A stretch of 45,112 bases of DNA from Candidatus Eiseniibacteriota bacterium. GTDB lineage: Bacteria; Eisenbacteria; RBG-16-71-46; SZUA-252. Each line of letters begins with the position of its first letter. Position 1 is the first letter of the stretch. Made by a program: the position numbers and the translations under genes. Positions 6,213-12,367 of the stretch are shown here, one piece after another. The notes under the pieces are model-generated. The model was not told the origin of the DNA and made no database searches. It saw only the letters and a list, made by a program, of their open reading frames with translations. Location of the stretch: positions 1-45,112 of the forward strand of contig VBOX01000086.1 in assembly GCA_005893265.1 (NCBI GenBank), read 5' to 3'.

Positions 6213-7361
6213 GTGCGTCCCGGCTGGGACGTCGTCTGGCTCAGTGATATTCCGTGGGGGAGTCTCTGGCAAAGGCCGCAGCAGCTCGCCACGAGGTTCC
6301 CGCCTGACTCGCGGATTCTCTTCGTGGAGCCCTGGACCATTGGCCATGCGCCTGCCCTCCGGCCGACTCAGGTCACCGAGCGGATCTCCCGCGTTTCATT
6401 TCCCTTTCTTCCGTTGCACGCGCGCTCGATTCGCTTGAGACGCCTCGCGTACCGGCTCGGAGGCTCGGCGCTCGCGGCTCGGTGCCTATTCGCGGCCCAG
6501 CGCGCGTGGGCAGCGACTCTTCGAGGATTCGGCCGACCCGGGGCGAGGCGCCTGGCGCTCGTGCAGAATTTTCTAGCCCGTCCCTCGCTCCGAACGTTTC
6601 GCCCCGAACGGGTCGTGTACGACATGATCGATGCTCCACTCCACTTCGCCCCCGTGCCGCCGCGTCTTGTGCCGCAGTGGGAGCGGCTCCTCCGCGAGGC
6701 CGACCGCGTTTCCGTCACTTCGCGGCCGCTCGCCCAGCTCGCGCGCTCGGGCGGCGCCCCGAATCCGCGCCCGATCGGGAACGGGGTCGACGTCGTGCGA
6801 TTCCAGGTGGCCGCTCCGGCCGATTCCCTCCCGGGAGACGCGGGCGCGCCGATCCTTGGCTACGTCGGATCGCTCCATTCCTGGTTCGATGTGCCTCTCA
6901 TCGCCACCCTCGCCCGGTCGCTTCCGGGCGCGCGGGTCGTTCTGGTCGGCCCCGCGCACCCCTCGACCCGCGCGGAGCTAGAACGCGTCTCCTCTTCGAC
7001 GCCGAATCTCTTCTGGCTCGGCCTCAAGCCCTACTCCGAGATTCCGTCGATCGTGCGGGCGTTCCGGGTGGGATTGATCCCGTTCCGCCGCACGCCTCTC
7101 ACGGAAGCGGTGAATCCGGTCAAGCTCTACGAGTACGCGGCGGCCGGCGTTCCGTGCGTCACGACACGGTTCACCGATGAGGTCGGGACGTGGGGAGGCG
7201 CGGCGCGCGTCGCGGATTCGGAGGAGGCTTTCGTTGCCTGCGTGAGATCCTTCCTCGAATCGCCCCCGGATCCGACGCCTCTGGTCGCGTTCGCGCGTCT
7301 CCACGATTGGGACGAGATCGCGCGGGAGTTCGTCGCCTTTTGCCTGGAGGACGCCGCGTGA
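6213..7361 (+). CDS. GT4 glycosyltransferase, TuaH-like
   Basis: 382 aa, GTG start with GGAGG five bases upstream. The N-terminus 'WGSLWQRPQQLATRF' is the signature seen in TuaH-like and related GT-B proteins, where it forms the acceptor-side loop. The later segments 'RVVYDMIDAPLHF' and 'IGNGVDVVRF' precede the C-terminal donor domain 'ILGYVGSLHSWFDVPLIATL'. The donor region ends with 'NPVKLYEYAAAGVPCVTT', in which the EX7E is replaced by the K-x-x-E type common to this subgroup. It belongs to the surface-glycan run and its stop overlaps the GTG of the YfhO-like gene (GTGA). Confidence 0.85.
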   Translation: MRPGWDVVWLSDIPWGSLWQRPQQLATRFPPDSRILFVEPWTIGHAPALRPTQVTERISRVSFPFLPLHARSIRLRRLAYRLGGSALAARCLFAAQRAWAATLRGFGRPGARRLALVQNFLARPSLRTFRPERVVYDMIDAPLHFAPVPPRLVPQWERLLREADRVSVTSRPLAQLARSGGAPNPRPIGNGVDVVRFQVAAPADSLPGDAGAPILGYVGSLHSWFDVPLIATLARSLPGARVVLVGPAHPSTRAELERVSSSTPNLFWLGLKPYSEIPSIVRAFRVGLIPFRRTPLTEAVNPVKLYEYAAAGVPCVTTRFTDEVGTWGGAARVADSEEAFVACVRSFLESPPDPTPLVAFARLHDWDEIAREFVAFCLEDAA

Positions 7362-9701
7362 GGCGCCCCTCGCGAGGGGGAACGAGCGCCGTACGGCAGG
7401 CGGGATCCCGCGAAGCCAAGGAGTCCGACCTCTCGCGCTGGGCTTGGGCGGTGGTGGCACTCCTCGTCCTCGTCTTCTTCTATCCAATTACGTTCGGGAA
7501 GGTTTTCCTCACTCCCGATTCGGTCGCTCCGGCCGGATTCGCGCGGGTCGCGCTCGACGCGCTCCAGAACCGGCACGTCTACGCGCTCTGGAATCCGTAT
7601 CACTTCCTGGGAATGCCTTCGTTCGGGAGTCTCGCGTTCGTCCCCTACGTCTATCCTTTGGATCCCGTTTTCGGATTCCTGAACAAGACGCTCCACTTTC
7701 CTGATCTAACCTGGCTTCTCACGCACTACCTGCTGCTTGCGCTCTCCATGCTGGCCCTCTTGAGGGCGCTCGGCGCCTCGACGGAAGGAGCGACCTTAGG
7801 AGCGCTCACGTTCGCGCTCACCCCGAATCTGGTGGCCGTCGGCGTGTTCGGACATGGAAGCCAGATCATGACCGCGGCGTATCTGCCGCTCCTGGTCTTC
7901 CTGCTCGATCGGTTCGTGCGTCGCGGATCGCCCCTTGCCCTCGCCGGGTTCGCCCTGGCGGCGGCGCTTCAACTCCTCCGGGGGCACGTGCAGATCGTCT
8001 TCTACACATGGCTCGCCCTCGGCGGCTACGCGCTCTTTCAAGTGATCCAAGGACTGAGGGAGGGGCAAAGGGGCGCGGTGGTGCGCGCGCCCGTCGGGCT
8101 TCTGGTCGGGCTCCTCTTAGGATTTGGGATGAGCGCCTTCCTCTATCTCCCTACCCACGAATACGCGAAGCTCTCGGTCCGCGGAGGTGGGGAAGGGGGC
8201 GGCGCGGGTCTCGACTACGCGACCCAGTGGTCCTTCCATCCCCGCGAGATCCTCACGTTCGCCATCCCCAGCATGTTCGGCTTCGGCGGCCGTACCTACT
8301 GGGGAAGCATGCCCTTCACCGACTATCCCAACTACATGGGCATCGTGCCGCTCGCGCTCGCCGTCTACGGTGCGATGCGGTGGCGCGGGAGAGTGCGGTG
8401 GTATCTCCTCACGATGGCGGTGGCGGCGCTCCTCATGTCGTTCGGAAAACACTTCCAGCCTCTCTATGCGCTCCTTTACTTCCATTTGCCGTTCTTCAAC
8501 AAGTTCCGGGTCCCCGTCATGATCCTGGTCTTGGTCCAGTTTGCGACCGCTGCCCTCGCCGCGTTCGGGCTCACGAGGGCGCTCGAGCGTGGAGCGACCG
8601 CCAAGGGCAAGGACGTGGACCCCGGTGCTTTGTGGATGCGGGCGGGGGTGTTGTCGGGGGTGGGCGGGGTCGCCGTCGTCGCGCTCCTCCACGCACTCTC
8701 GGGAGCGATCGAGACCGCCGCGACCCAGAGTCGTCCTTCCTTCAGCACGGACCTGGCCCGGCAGGCGATCGACATGGCTTCGCTCGACGCGATCAAGTCG
8801 GGGATCCTCCTCGGGATTGGGTGCATCGCCATCGCGCTCGCGCGACGCGGCCGGATGCGCCGGGTCACGGCGGCGGCGCTGGTTCTCACGGTCACGGTGG
8901 TCGATCTCTGGGTGATCGATCGCAAGATCATGGACGCGCAAGTCGGCTCCCCCCAGGAGTACGCGGAGTATTTCAAGGAAACACCCGAGGTGACCTTTCT
9001 CAAGTCCGACTCCACGCTCTTCCGGGTGCTCCCGATGGATCCGCACGACAGCCGGCTGGCTGCCTACGGCATCGCGTCGGTTATGGGCTACCACCCAGCA
9101 AAGCCCAAGCTGTACCAAGCTTTCGCCGACACCGCGCAGATCATGAGCAGCCTCGACATCCTCCGCTTCCTGAACGTGAAGTACGTGCTCACCGACGGTT
9201 ACATCCCGAAGGACACGCCAGGATTCACGCTGCGGCACGACGGCGAGGTGAAGGTATACGAGCTGGACGGCGCGTTGCCGCGCGCCTATGTGGTGCACCG
9301 ACTCGTCCCCGTGCGGAATGAATCCGTCGCTCTCGCGATGATCCGGACCGGCAATTTTCATCCGACCCATGAAGCGCTCTGGACCGGTCCTGACCCGTTG
9401 CCGCCGATGGCCGAGCCGAGCCAGCCGGACTCCGTCCGGGTGATCCGGTACGACCGTGGACGGCGCGCCCACGACGATCCATCAGGTGGATTACCTGATT
9501 CGCGGCGTCGTGGTCGGCCCCGGCGTGCACAGGATCCGCTTCCACTACGAGCCTCGCGCGCTCCAAGCGGGGATCCGGATTTCCATCGCATCGCTCGCGC
9601 TCACGGTCGTGCTGGCGGGCGCGGGTCTGATCCGCCGGCGCCGTCCCGTGGCCCCGCCGGGCCCCGTAGCGGGCGAGCCTGCGGGAGGATCGCCCGCTTG
9701 A
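7358..9701 (+). CDS. YfhO-like polytopic membrane protein, disrupted near the 3' end
   Basis: The start is the GTG in the GTGA overlap with the upstream GT4. About 700 codons in this frame encode a many-helix membrane protein with the family blocks 'ITFGKVFLTPDSVAP', 'ALWNPYHFLGMPSFG', 'GHVQIVFYTWLALGGYALF' and 'LPFFNKFRVPVMIL'. These match YfhO (PF09586), a GT-C-fold family linked to glycosylation of surface polymers. Past about 9453 the frame becomes Arg/Pro-rich non-homologous text. The real C-terminus ('VDGAPTTIHQVDYLIRGVVV', then 'HRIRFHYEP' and a last TM helix) continues in the +1 neighbouring frame to the stop at 9699-9701. Around the join 'VIRYD' is followed directly by 'VDGAP', so the usual ~35-residue stretch with the YPGW motif is absent. 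A deletion of a non-multiple of three, or an assembly error, is likely. An automatic caller would report a false YfhO-GT2 fusion (7190-10411). Confidence 0.8.
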
Positions 9702-10411
9702 AAGCGCTCGTGATCATCCCGACCTACAACGAGCGGGAGAATCTGCCGGAGCTCTTGAGGCGGATCTTCGCGGAAGGGCTGCCGCTCGAGGTGCTCATTG
9801 TCGACGACAATTCGCCCGATGCAACAGGGGCGGCGGCGGACGCCCTGGCCGCGACCGATCCGCGGGTCCACGTCATGCACCGTCCTGGGAAGATGGGGCT
9901 TGGGTCCGCGTATGTCGCGGGCTTCCGCTACGCGATCGAGCACGACTACGACGCGGTGTTCGAGATGGACGCGGATTTCTCACACAATCCGGATTCGCTT
10001 CCGGAGTTTCTGAGGGAGCTCGAGAACGCGGACCTCGTGGTCGGATCGCGGTATCTGCACGGTGTCACGGTCGTGAACTGGCCGCTGAAGCGACTGATCC
10101 TCTCCTACCTCGCGAACGTGTACTGCCGCGTCATCACGGGCATGCCCATCAAGGACGCGACCGGCGGATTCAAGTGCTTCCGCCGACAGGTGCTCGAATC
10201 GCTCGACTTGAGCCACGTCAGATCGGACGGCTACGGCTTTCAGATCGAGATCAATTTCAAAGCGTGGAGAAAGGGATTCCGCATCCGCGAGATTCCGATT
10301 CTCTTCGTCGACCGTCGCGCGGGGGAATCCAAGATGTCACGGCGGATCGTATGGGAAGCCGCGTGGATGGTCTGGAGGCTCCGCGTCCTCGACCTGCTCG
10401 GCGCCCTCTAG
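9698..10411 (+). CDS. Polyprenol-phosphate mannosyltransferase-like GT2 (DPM1 type)
   Basis: About 237 aa from a TTG whose TTGA overlaps the YfhO stop in the other frame. A GGAGG lies nine bases upstream (9684-9688), which supports this as an independent start rather than part of the 1073-aa fused ORF. The domain is a compact GT-A with 'VIIPTYNERENLPELL', 'LIVDDNSPDATG', the DXD-like 'EMDADFSHNP', 'GSRYLHG' and the conserved 'DATGGFKCFRRQVLE'. No TM helices follow, as in single-domain bacterial Ppm1/DPM1. It would make a polyprenyl-phosphate-linked hexose (mannose in characterised members) for membrane glycosyltransferases. The adjacent YfhO-like gene is a natural candidate acceptor enzyme, by inference from context. 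Confidence 0.92.
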   Translation: MKALVIIPTYNERENLPELLRRIFAEGLPLEVLIVDDNSPDATGAAADALAATDPRVHVMHRPGKMGLGSAYVAGFRYAIEHDYDAVFEMDADFSHNPDSLPEFLRELENADLVVGSRYLHGVTVVNWPLKRLILSYLANVYCRVITGMPIKDATGGFKCFRRQVLESLDLSHVRSDGYGFQIEINFKAWRKGFRIREIPILFVDRRAGESKMSRRIVWEAAWMVWRLRVLDLLGAL

Positions 10412-10423
10412 GCTGGACCACCC

Positions 10424-12367
10424 ATGTCCGTCTCCCTGATCGTCATCCATTACCATACCCGCCCGGCGCTCGGACGCCTGCTCCAATCCCTCCGCGACGC
10501 GCTCCCGGAGCCGCTTCGGGAGATCCTCATCGTGAACAACTCGGGAGAGCCGCTCGAGGATCTGCTCCCGGGGCTGCCGTGGCCGGCGAGGATCCTCGCC
10601 CCGGGAAGCAACCTGGGCTATGCGCGCGGCGTGAACGAGGGAATCCGGGCCGCCCGGGAGGACGCCATCCTGATCCTGAACCCGGACATCCAGGTGCTGC
10701 CGGGCTCCATCGAGGCGCTCGTCCGGTGTGCCGGGGAACACCCCAGGGCGGGAATCGTCGCCCCCAAGCTCATGAACTCCGACGGAACGCTTCAGCTTTC
10801 CGCCAGGCGATTCTACAATTGGAAGACCCTTTTCCTGAGACGGGCACCGCTCGGGCCGTACGCGGCCAGGAGCCGAACCCTCCGGAACCACCTCATGGCC
10901 GACTGGGACCACGCGGAAACCCGCCCCGTCGACTGGGTTCTCGGAGCGGCCATGTTCGCGCGAAGGCGGGCGGTGCGGGACGTGGGGATGATGGATGAGC
11001 GCTACTTTCTCTACTTCGAGGACGTGGATTGGTGCCAGCGGATGTGGCGCCACGGATACGAGGTCCTGTACTGCGCGGATGCCTCGATGGTGCATGAGTA
11101 CGCCCGCGGGAGCGCCCAGCTCCGCGCGCGCTCGATCCGGGCGCACGCGGCCGGGCTCCTCCGTTTCGCGGAAAAGTGGAGCGCCGTTCTCTACGCCGTG
11201 AGCCAGAATCGCAAACGCATTCTGTCGCTGGCTACACTGGCGACCGACGTACTTGCGGCCGTCCTCGCTTTCCTTGGCGCGTACGCGATCCGGGCTTCGC
11301 TCGCGCCGGTCTTCGCCAAGCCGATCTACCCGCTCCCGGGCTACGGTGGCCTCCTCTTTTTCACGGTCGCGGTCTCGCTGGCCGCGCTCGCGGCCAACGG
11401 GCTCTACCGTCGATCCACGTTCCTGGACGGGATCGAGCGCGCGTTCTCGATCGGGCAGGCCGTGGTTCAAGCGGTGCTCTTCCTCATGGCGGCGACCTTC
11501 CTGTTCCAGACCCCGCGATACTCGCGCGTGCTCGTGCTTCTCCTGGCCCCTCTTCTCTACGGGGCGCTCCTGGCATCCAGGACCGTCGTCGGAAGGCTCG
11601 GCGCCGGGGCTCGACGGCAGGGCTTCGCGTTTCGCCGTGTCCTCATCGTGGGATCCGGCGACGAGGCCGAACGGACGAGGGAGGCGCTCGAGGAGGCGCG
11701 CGGCGAGGGATTCGAGCCGCTCAAGACGGTGGTCCCCTCCGACCCCGGCGAGGCGCCGAAGGAGGCGGCCGCGAGGCTCAAGGCGCTCGTCGAGAGCGAG
11801 CGGATCCAAATCGTCTGCGTCGTGCCGGAGCCTGGGGAAGTGCCCTACCTGCTCGCCGCGGCGGCCGCGCTACGCGACTCAGGCGCGGCGGTCTATTGGG
11901 CGGGCTCGGTGGCCCAGCTTGCCGCCGAGGAACGCCTCGCCTCGCTGGGCCGGGTGCGCGCGGTCCTGCTCCATTCCCCCAGCCGGGGCCTCTCGCTTCG
12001 CGTGAGGAAGCGCGCGAGCGATCTTCTCCTCTCGATCTTCGTCGCCCCGTTTCGCTGGGGCGCGCTGCGCGCGTACCTCGCGGGGCGTGGCGAGGGGTAC
12101 GGTCCAGCCGAAGCCTGGGGGCGGGTGTGGTCGGGACGTCTGAGCTGGGTCGGCCGGAGCGCCTACGAAGGGGATCGGTGGGCAGGCGTCCCCGATTGGG
12201 CACGGCTCGCGCTCGAGTCGGTCCGACCCGGCGTCGTGACTCCGCCCGACGGGGCGTCCGGGGACCCCATGACCAAGGTAGCGGCCGAGCTCGCCTACCT
12301 GTCTCGCTTCTCGCTTGCCGAGGACCTGCGCGTATTTCTCCGGGCCACGAGGGGAACCATCCGTTGA
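10424..12367 (+). CDS. GT2 fused to a degenerate polyprenyl-phosphate glycosylphosphotransferase
   Basis: 647 aa. Residues 1-255 are a GT2 of the rhamnosyltransferase type ('NLGYARGVNEGI', 'LNPDIQVLPG', 'YFEDVDWCQRMWRHG'). Residues 265-385 contain four TM helices. Residues 403-505 form a Rossmann-like domain ('RRVLIVGSGDEAERTREALE') of the CoA_binding_3 type that precedes the WbaP/EpsE family catalytic domain. The last 120 residues start like that domain ('RKRASDLLLSIFVAP') and end like it ('RPGVVTPPDG' and 'LAYLSRFSLAEDLRVFLRAT'). The catalytic middle is missing: there is no re-entrant 'GPVFFRQ', no 'KFRSM'-like segment and no 'DELPQ'-like segment. GT2 activity looks intact. Phosphotransferase activity is probably lost, so the C-terminus may only anchor or regulate. 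The stop overlaps the TTG of the next gene. Confidence 0.85.
   Translation: MSVSLIVIHYHTRPALGRLLQSLRDALPEPLREILIVNNSGEPLEDLLPGLPWPARILAPGSNLGYARGVNEGIRAAREDAILILNPDIQVLPGSIEALVRCAGEHPRAGIVAPKLMNSDGTLQLSARRFYNWKTLFLRRAPLGPYAARSRTLRNHLMADWDHAETRPVDWVLGAAMFARRRAVRDVGMMDERYFLYFEDVDWCQRMWRHGYEVLYCADASMVHEYARGSAQLRARSIRAHAAGLLRFAEKWSAVLYAVSQNRKRILSLATLATDVLAAVLAFLGAYAIRASLAPVFAKPIYPLPGYGGLLFFTVAVSLAALAANGLYRRSTFLDGIERAFSIGQAVVQAVLFLMAATFLFQTPRYSRVLVLLLAPLLYGALLASRTVVGRLGAGARRQGFAFRRVLIVGSGDEAERTREALEEARGEGFEPLKTVVPSDPGEAPKEAAARLKALVESERIQIVCVVPEPGEVPYLLAAAAALRDSGAAVYWAGSVAQLAAEERLASLGRVRAVLLHSPSRGLSLRVRKRASDLLLSIFVAPFRWGALRAYLAGRGEGYGPAEAWGRVWSGRLSWVGRSAYEGDRWAGVPDWARLALESVRPGVVTPPDGASGDPMTKVAAELAYLSRFSLAEDLRVFLRATRGTIR

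Follow-up and report, generated by a model that had tools for sequence, protein, structure and literature searches.

An 86-bp loss that splits a YfhO-like gene in a Candidatus Eiseniibacteriota draft genome is very probably an unmarked scaffold gap

The YfhO-like gene at 7358-9701 of the window (the whole 45,112-nucleotide stretch analysed here, contig C91 of a 2.48-Mb, 116-contig draft genome referred to as G000) is split between two frames at a join where 86 bp are absent. Comparison with relatives and with other parts of the same assembly leads us to conclude, with high confidence, that these 86 bp would be missing from the assembly and not from the organism, the join being an unmarked scaffold gap. 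The feature has no direct bearing on biology; its value lies in the warning that it carries for the annotation of this draft genome.

Results

A YfhO-like gene in two frames

The GTG start of the YfhO-like gene at 7358 overlaps the TGA of an upstream glycosyltransferase gene, and the frame that begins there is open as far as VIRYD, after which the gene is out of frame at 9450-9454, as determined from the sequence and from relatives. This first part (about 699 codons in a single frame, 7358..9453, forward strand) is 83% identical in amino acids over 699 residues to its counterpart in G003, a genome of the same genus, and covers the polytopic membrane region of the protein together with most of its presumed extracytoplasmic portion. 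The C-terminal rest (9454..9701, forward strand) lies in the other frame, where it reads VDGAPTTIHQVDYLIRG... from VDGAP up to the TGA at 9701; it holds the last hydrophobic (transmembrane) segment and is 74% identical in amino acids to residues 729-805 of the G003 protein. Upstream of the join, the frame that later codes for VDGAP is closed by a TGA (9441..9443, forward strand), and the switch must therefore come after 9443. A sequence-only reading of this DNA had placed a frame change between 9441 and about 9500, an interval that contains the position found here. The genome was searched for a second copy of the gene and none was found.

Relative to each of four relatives (G001, G002, G003 and G006), the window lacks exactly 86 bp (28 2/3 codons) at the join (9450..9454, forward strand). 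G003, whose DNA is 84% identical to the window at this gene, reads LFVLSDQYDPDWRAT across the absent block of about 29 residues. Thus, the internal loss proposed in the sequence-only reading stands, but at a smaller size than the approximately 100 bp and 35 residues given there, and the YPGW motif expected in the block is not the one found, since this genus carries YDPDW instead. With the intact G003 protein as query, we then screened 29 further relatives, of which 27 have a single frame across the join position, and two were not scored at the junction (one ends at a contig end, the other gave a partial alignment only). Every scorable relative reads through in one frame, two frames being seen in the window copy only. 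The same shortened sequence, which the earlier reading had named as refuting it if present in relatives, was found at 9450-9454 neither in G001, G002, G003 and G006 nor in the 27 further relatives that could be scored.

The 86-bp loss places the first 700 YfhO codons in frame with the next gene, a GT2 glycosyltransferase, and so generates a spurious ORF of 1073 codons (7190..10411, forward strand) that consists of a start lying out of frame within the upstream gene, the 700 YfhO codons, about 80 junk codons and the GT2. That this ORF is an artefact joining YfhO to the GT2 had been correctly recognised from the sequence. The GT2 gene itself (9698..10411, forward strand; PF00535, E 1.5e-32; 94.5% amino-acid identity to G003) is intact and resembles polyprenyl-phosphate sugar synthases. 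Its TTG start at 9698 overlaps the YfhO stop by 4 nt, which suggests that translation of the two genes may be coupled. Beyond it, at 10424-12367 of the window, one frame links a GT2 domain to an N-terminal polyprenyl glycosylphosphotransferase region (CoA_binding_3 / EPS_sugtrans), with no match there to the catalytic end of that enzyme; with 90.6% conservation in G003, this frame is probably genuine.

Family and inferred function

PF09586 (YfhO) matches the proteins of intact relatives above or near the cut-off of 28.5 bits (29.7 bits for G003, 36.7 bits for G006), the match being limited to the last ~50-80 residues, and in G003 and G006 to the last ~50-59. The window fragment 7358-9457 gave no match to PF09586 even at E 10, because the match covers only the C-terminal end, which is the part broken here. 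In Bacillus subtilis, YfhO (PF09586) is a predicted GT-C glycosyltransferase encoded in the operon csbB-yfhO, CsbB being its GT2 partner (PMC5836110), and the window has a similar arrangement of a membrane protein gene adjoining a GT2 gene. By analogy, the product of the intact gene is most likely a YfhO-like membrane glycosyltransferase of GT-C type; it would take a sugar from a lipid carrier and transfer it to an envelope polymer, and the adjacent GT2 would make the lipid-linked sugar.

One-way losses of about 100 bp across the genome

G000 is 93.4% complete with 0.23% contamination. Among its nearest named relatives, metagenome-assembled genomes of Candidatus Eisenbacteria predominate, and one contig from the same genus carries the label Latescibacterota. 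In the 35 kb of the window collinear with contig C20 of G003, no other uncompensated frame-breaking indel was seen. The absence of a second broken gene there counts against an assembly gap and at first favoured a single real event, a view that was reversed by a wider sample. Here G000, represented by contigs C1-C60, each in full or for its first 20 kb (about 1.03 Mb in total), was compared with about 1.09 Mb of G003.

In the 363,885 aligned bases of this sample, 22 clean blocks of 59-145 bp (mean 98) are absent from G000 relative to G003, while the reverse, G003 being short relative to G000, occurs once (84 bp; binomial p = 6e-6 for 22 versus 1). Indels of 15-41 bp are without this bias (7 versus 13; Fisher p = 3e-5 for the contrast with the large class). 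Losses thus occur in G000 at about one per 16 kb, a rate that rests on these aligned bases, ~15% of the genome, and on one congener. Their sizes modulo 3 are distributed 7/8/7, indicating that the coding frame is not respected and that there is no frame selection. G003 is 14-16% divergent, so single losses could be real; taken as a whole, the class is hard to explain biologically.

The genes hit point in the same direction. Firstly, glmS, of which G000 has a sole copy over the family cut-off, is split in two frames, with its join at C9 ~18503. Loss of glutamine-fructose-6-phosphate aminotransferase (glmS), if it is the sole copy, is not expected in a living bacterium. Secondly, lepA, also the only copy in G000, is split in two frames (join at C9 ~13857), and rlmN, again the only copy, is shortened. 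The same clean losses interrupt uvrA (join at C6 ~6248), rsmE and a histidine kinase-like gene, and one of the two copies of groEL has a 104-bp loss, the other being intact. That the sole glmS and other housekeeping genes are broken alike favours an artefact over real deletions. The two groEL loci are at C11:30842-32410 and C24:8847-10314; two copies are also present in some relatives.

Calibration on gaps marked with Ns

Three runs of Ns in the sampled part of G000 could be measured against G003 for their true sizes: the 12 Ns at C58:5444 replace 71 real bases, the 14 at C8:9931 replace 95 and the 19 at C53:16347 replace 86, with G001 within a few bases of G003 for the latter two. These gaps had therefore been underestimated by 59-81 bases, and the 86-bp YfhO loss falls inside the range of their true sizes (71-95 bases). 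The C58 site is itself one of the 22 losses, which makes the marked and unmarked cases one series. Gaps of the same true size as these, if estimated at zero or below, would close without Ns, and this is what the YfhO join looks like; we infer that it belongs to the scaffold-gap class. A further run, 20 Ns at C46:12769, separates two contig ends that share an imperfect overlap of ~44 bases, which points to variation between strains or to a repeat mistaken for a gap.

Selection on either side of the join

The tail (9454..9701), read in its original frame over 80 codons, has an omega (dN/dS) of 0.36 against G003, inside the range of 0.32-0.45 obtained when intact relatives are compared with one another; ahead of the join (7358..9453), omega against G003 is 0.165. 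No relaxed selection or further decay was found behind the lesion, and the tail has no additional stops. The tail is thus still under purifying selection in its original frame, so that the event must be either very recent or not biological.

Discussion

The sequence-only reading had left the choice between a recent pseudogene and sequence dropped by the assembly. The recurrent one-way losses, the housekeeping genes affected and the sizes of the N-marked gaps speak for the assembly and not for a pseudogene. As to how the join might have arisen, two contigs would have flanked a small unassembled gap inside the YfhO-like gene, the assembler or scaffolder would have ordered them as neighbours by means of read pairs, and the gap, if estimated at zero or below, would have been closed by abutting the two ends without Ns.

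Several points go against an assembly gap. The join has 3-4 bp of microhomology, CGA(C), which is also what a real slippage deletion would leave, whereas most other junctions of the loss class have 0-1 tied positions. It is not evident that the cell needs the YfhO-like gene, and a genuine loss could therefore be tolerated. Finally, the absent 86 bp were sought elsewhere in the same assembly and not found; this is expected for unassembled sequence, but is no direct proof of it.

The principal alternative is a real and very recent 86-bp deletion by replication slippage at CGAC, which would have turned YfhO into a pseudogene with its N-terminal part joined to the GT2. In its favour, apart from the microhomology at the junction, are the biological plausibility of a frame-breaking loss in a surface-sugar gene and the lack of any other such copy in the genome; a very recent real lesion would also leave the tail looking undecayed. 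Against it stand the 22 losses of the same size class in 364 kb, with the sole glmS and lepA broken, a size equal to the true size of N-marked scaffold gaps, a tail without decay, and the finding that no relative shares the loss, the genomes compared being all from other species. Together, these make a real deletion very improbable. Extending it to the whole class, i.e. to an organism undergoing a genome-wide wave of recent ~60-145 bp deletions, in early genome decay and with key genes already broken, would yield a scenario that we regard as extremely unlikely. Least credible, with a negligible probability, is programmed frameshifting or a functional YfhO-GT2 fusion in which the long product is used: the frame is open from 7358 to 10411 with an intact GT2 domain inside, but no frameshift can restore the 29 absent residues, and the ~80 residues at the junction are rich in Arg and come from out-of-frame sequence. 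The fusion also lacks the last transmembrane segment, so that the GT2 would lie outside the cell should the loop be extracytoplasmic, as it is in B. subtilis YfhO (PMC5836110). Moreover, G003 has two separate genes with a 4-nt overlap, and DNA of 66% GC is expected to contain long open frames by chance.

Other technical or structural causes were considered for the losses. Repeat collapse is unlikely, since the junctions have no long direct repeat and CGA/C is too short. GC dropout is not indicated, the absent segments having 67% GC versus 66% in the sample, and neither is hairpin-driven deletion, as segments drawn at random from this genome fold at least as well as the absent ones. Nor do the 35 kb collinear with G003 show a generally low quality with many small frameshifts.

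An unmarked scaffold gap, the preferred reading, has precedents. Many purported bacterial pseudogenes are bona fide genes, spurious ones arising from sequencing and assembly (PMC11017572). As in those cases, frame-broken genes here would be technical artefacts with an inflated genome-wide count as the diagnostic; unlike them, what is apparently lost here are blocks of ~60-145 bp at scaffold joins, most likely in a metagenome-assembled genome. For metagenome-assembled genomes, two reports mention local errors of assembly and gaps left by scaffolding (PMC11291895, PMC6509639), and a third describes mistaken linking-read alignments at contig boundaries (PMC9326850). The present case resembles such scaffolding errors in that contigs would have been joined by read pairs at a wrong distance.

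Extrapolating from 22 losses in 364 kb to 2.48 Mb, G000 probably has ~150 losses of ~100 bp, mostly unmarked, which the completeness and contamination values do not expose. Each of them that falls inside a gene may give the false appearance of a pseudogene or of a gene fusion, or leave a domain missing, and split, truncated or fused genes from G000 should therefore be compared with relatives before use. The direction and size of indels relative to one congener reveal the problem without reads.

Two further differences were noted in passing. Firstly, at 1862-1948 of the window (junction ~1889-1892), ~867 bp are lost relative to G003, leaving the last ~20-29 codons of an epimerase. G003 has a complete NAD-dependent sugar epimerase gene at the same place (L101 4419-5354), the gene is also present in G002 (77%) and G001 (82%, cut by a contig end), and no other close copy was found in the window's genome; an assembly gap of larger size or a true loss of the gene could each account for this. 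Secondly, the YfhO-like gene of G001 (VBOR01000060.1, L034 5665) has a separate, in-frame 150-bp loss in its membrane part, and the sequence adjoining that gene lacks another ~167 bp relative to G003; both probably belong to the same class of artefact in another assembly.
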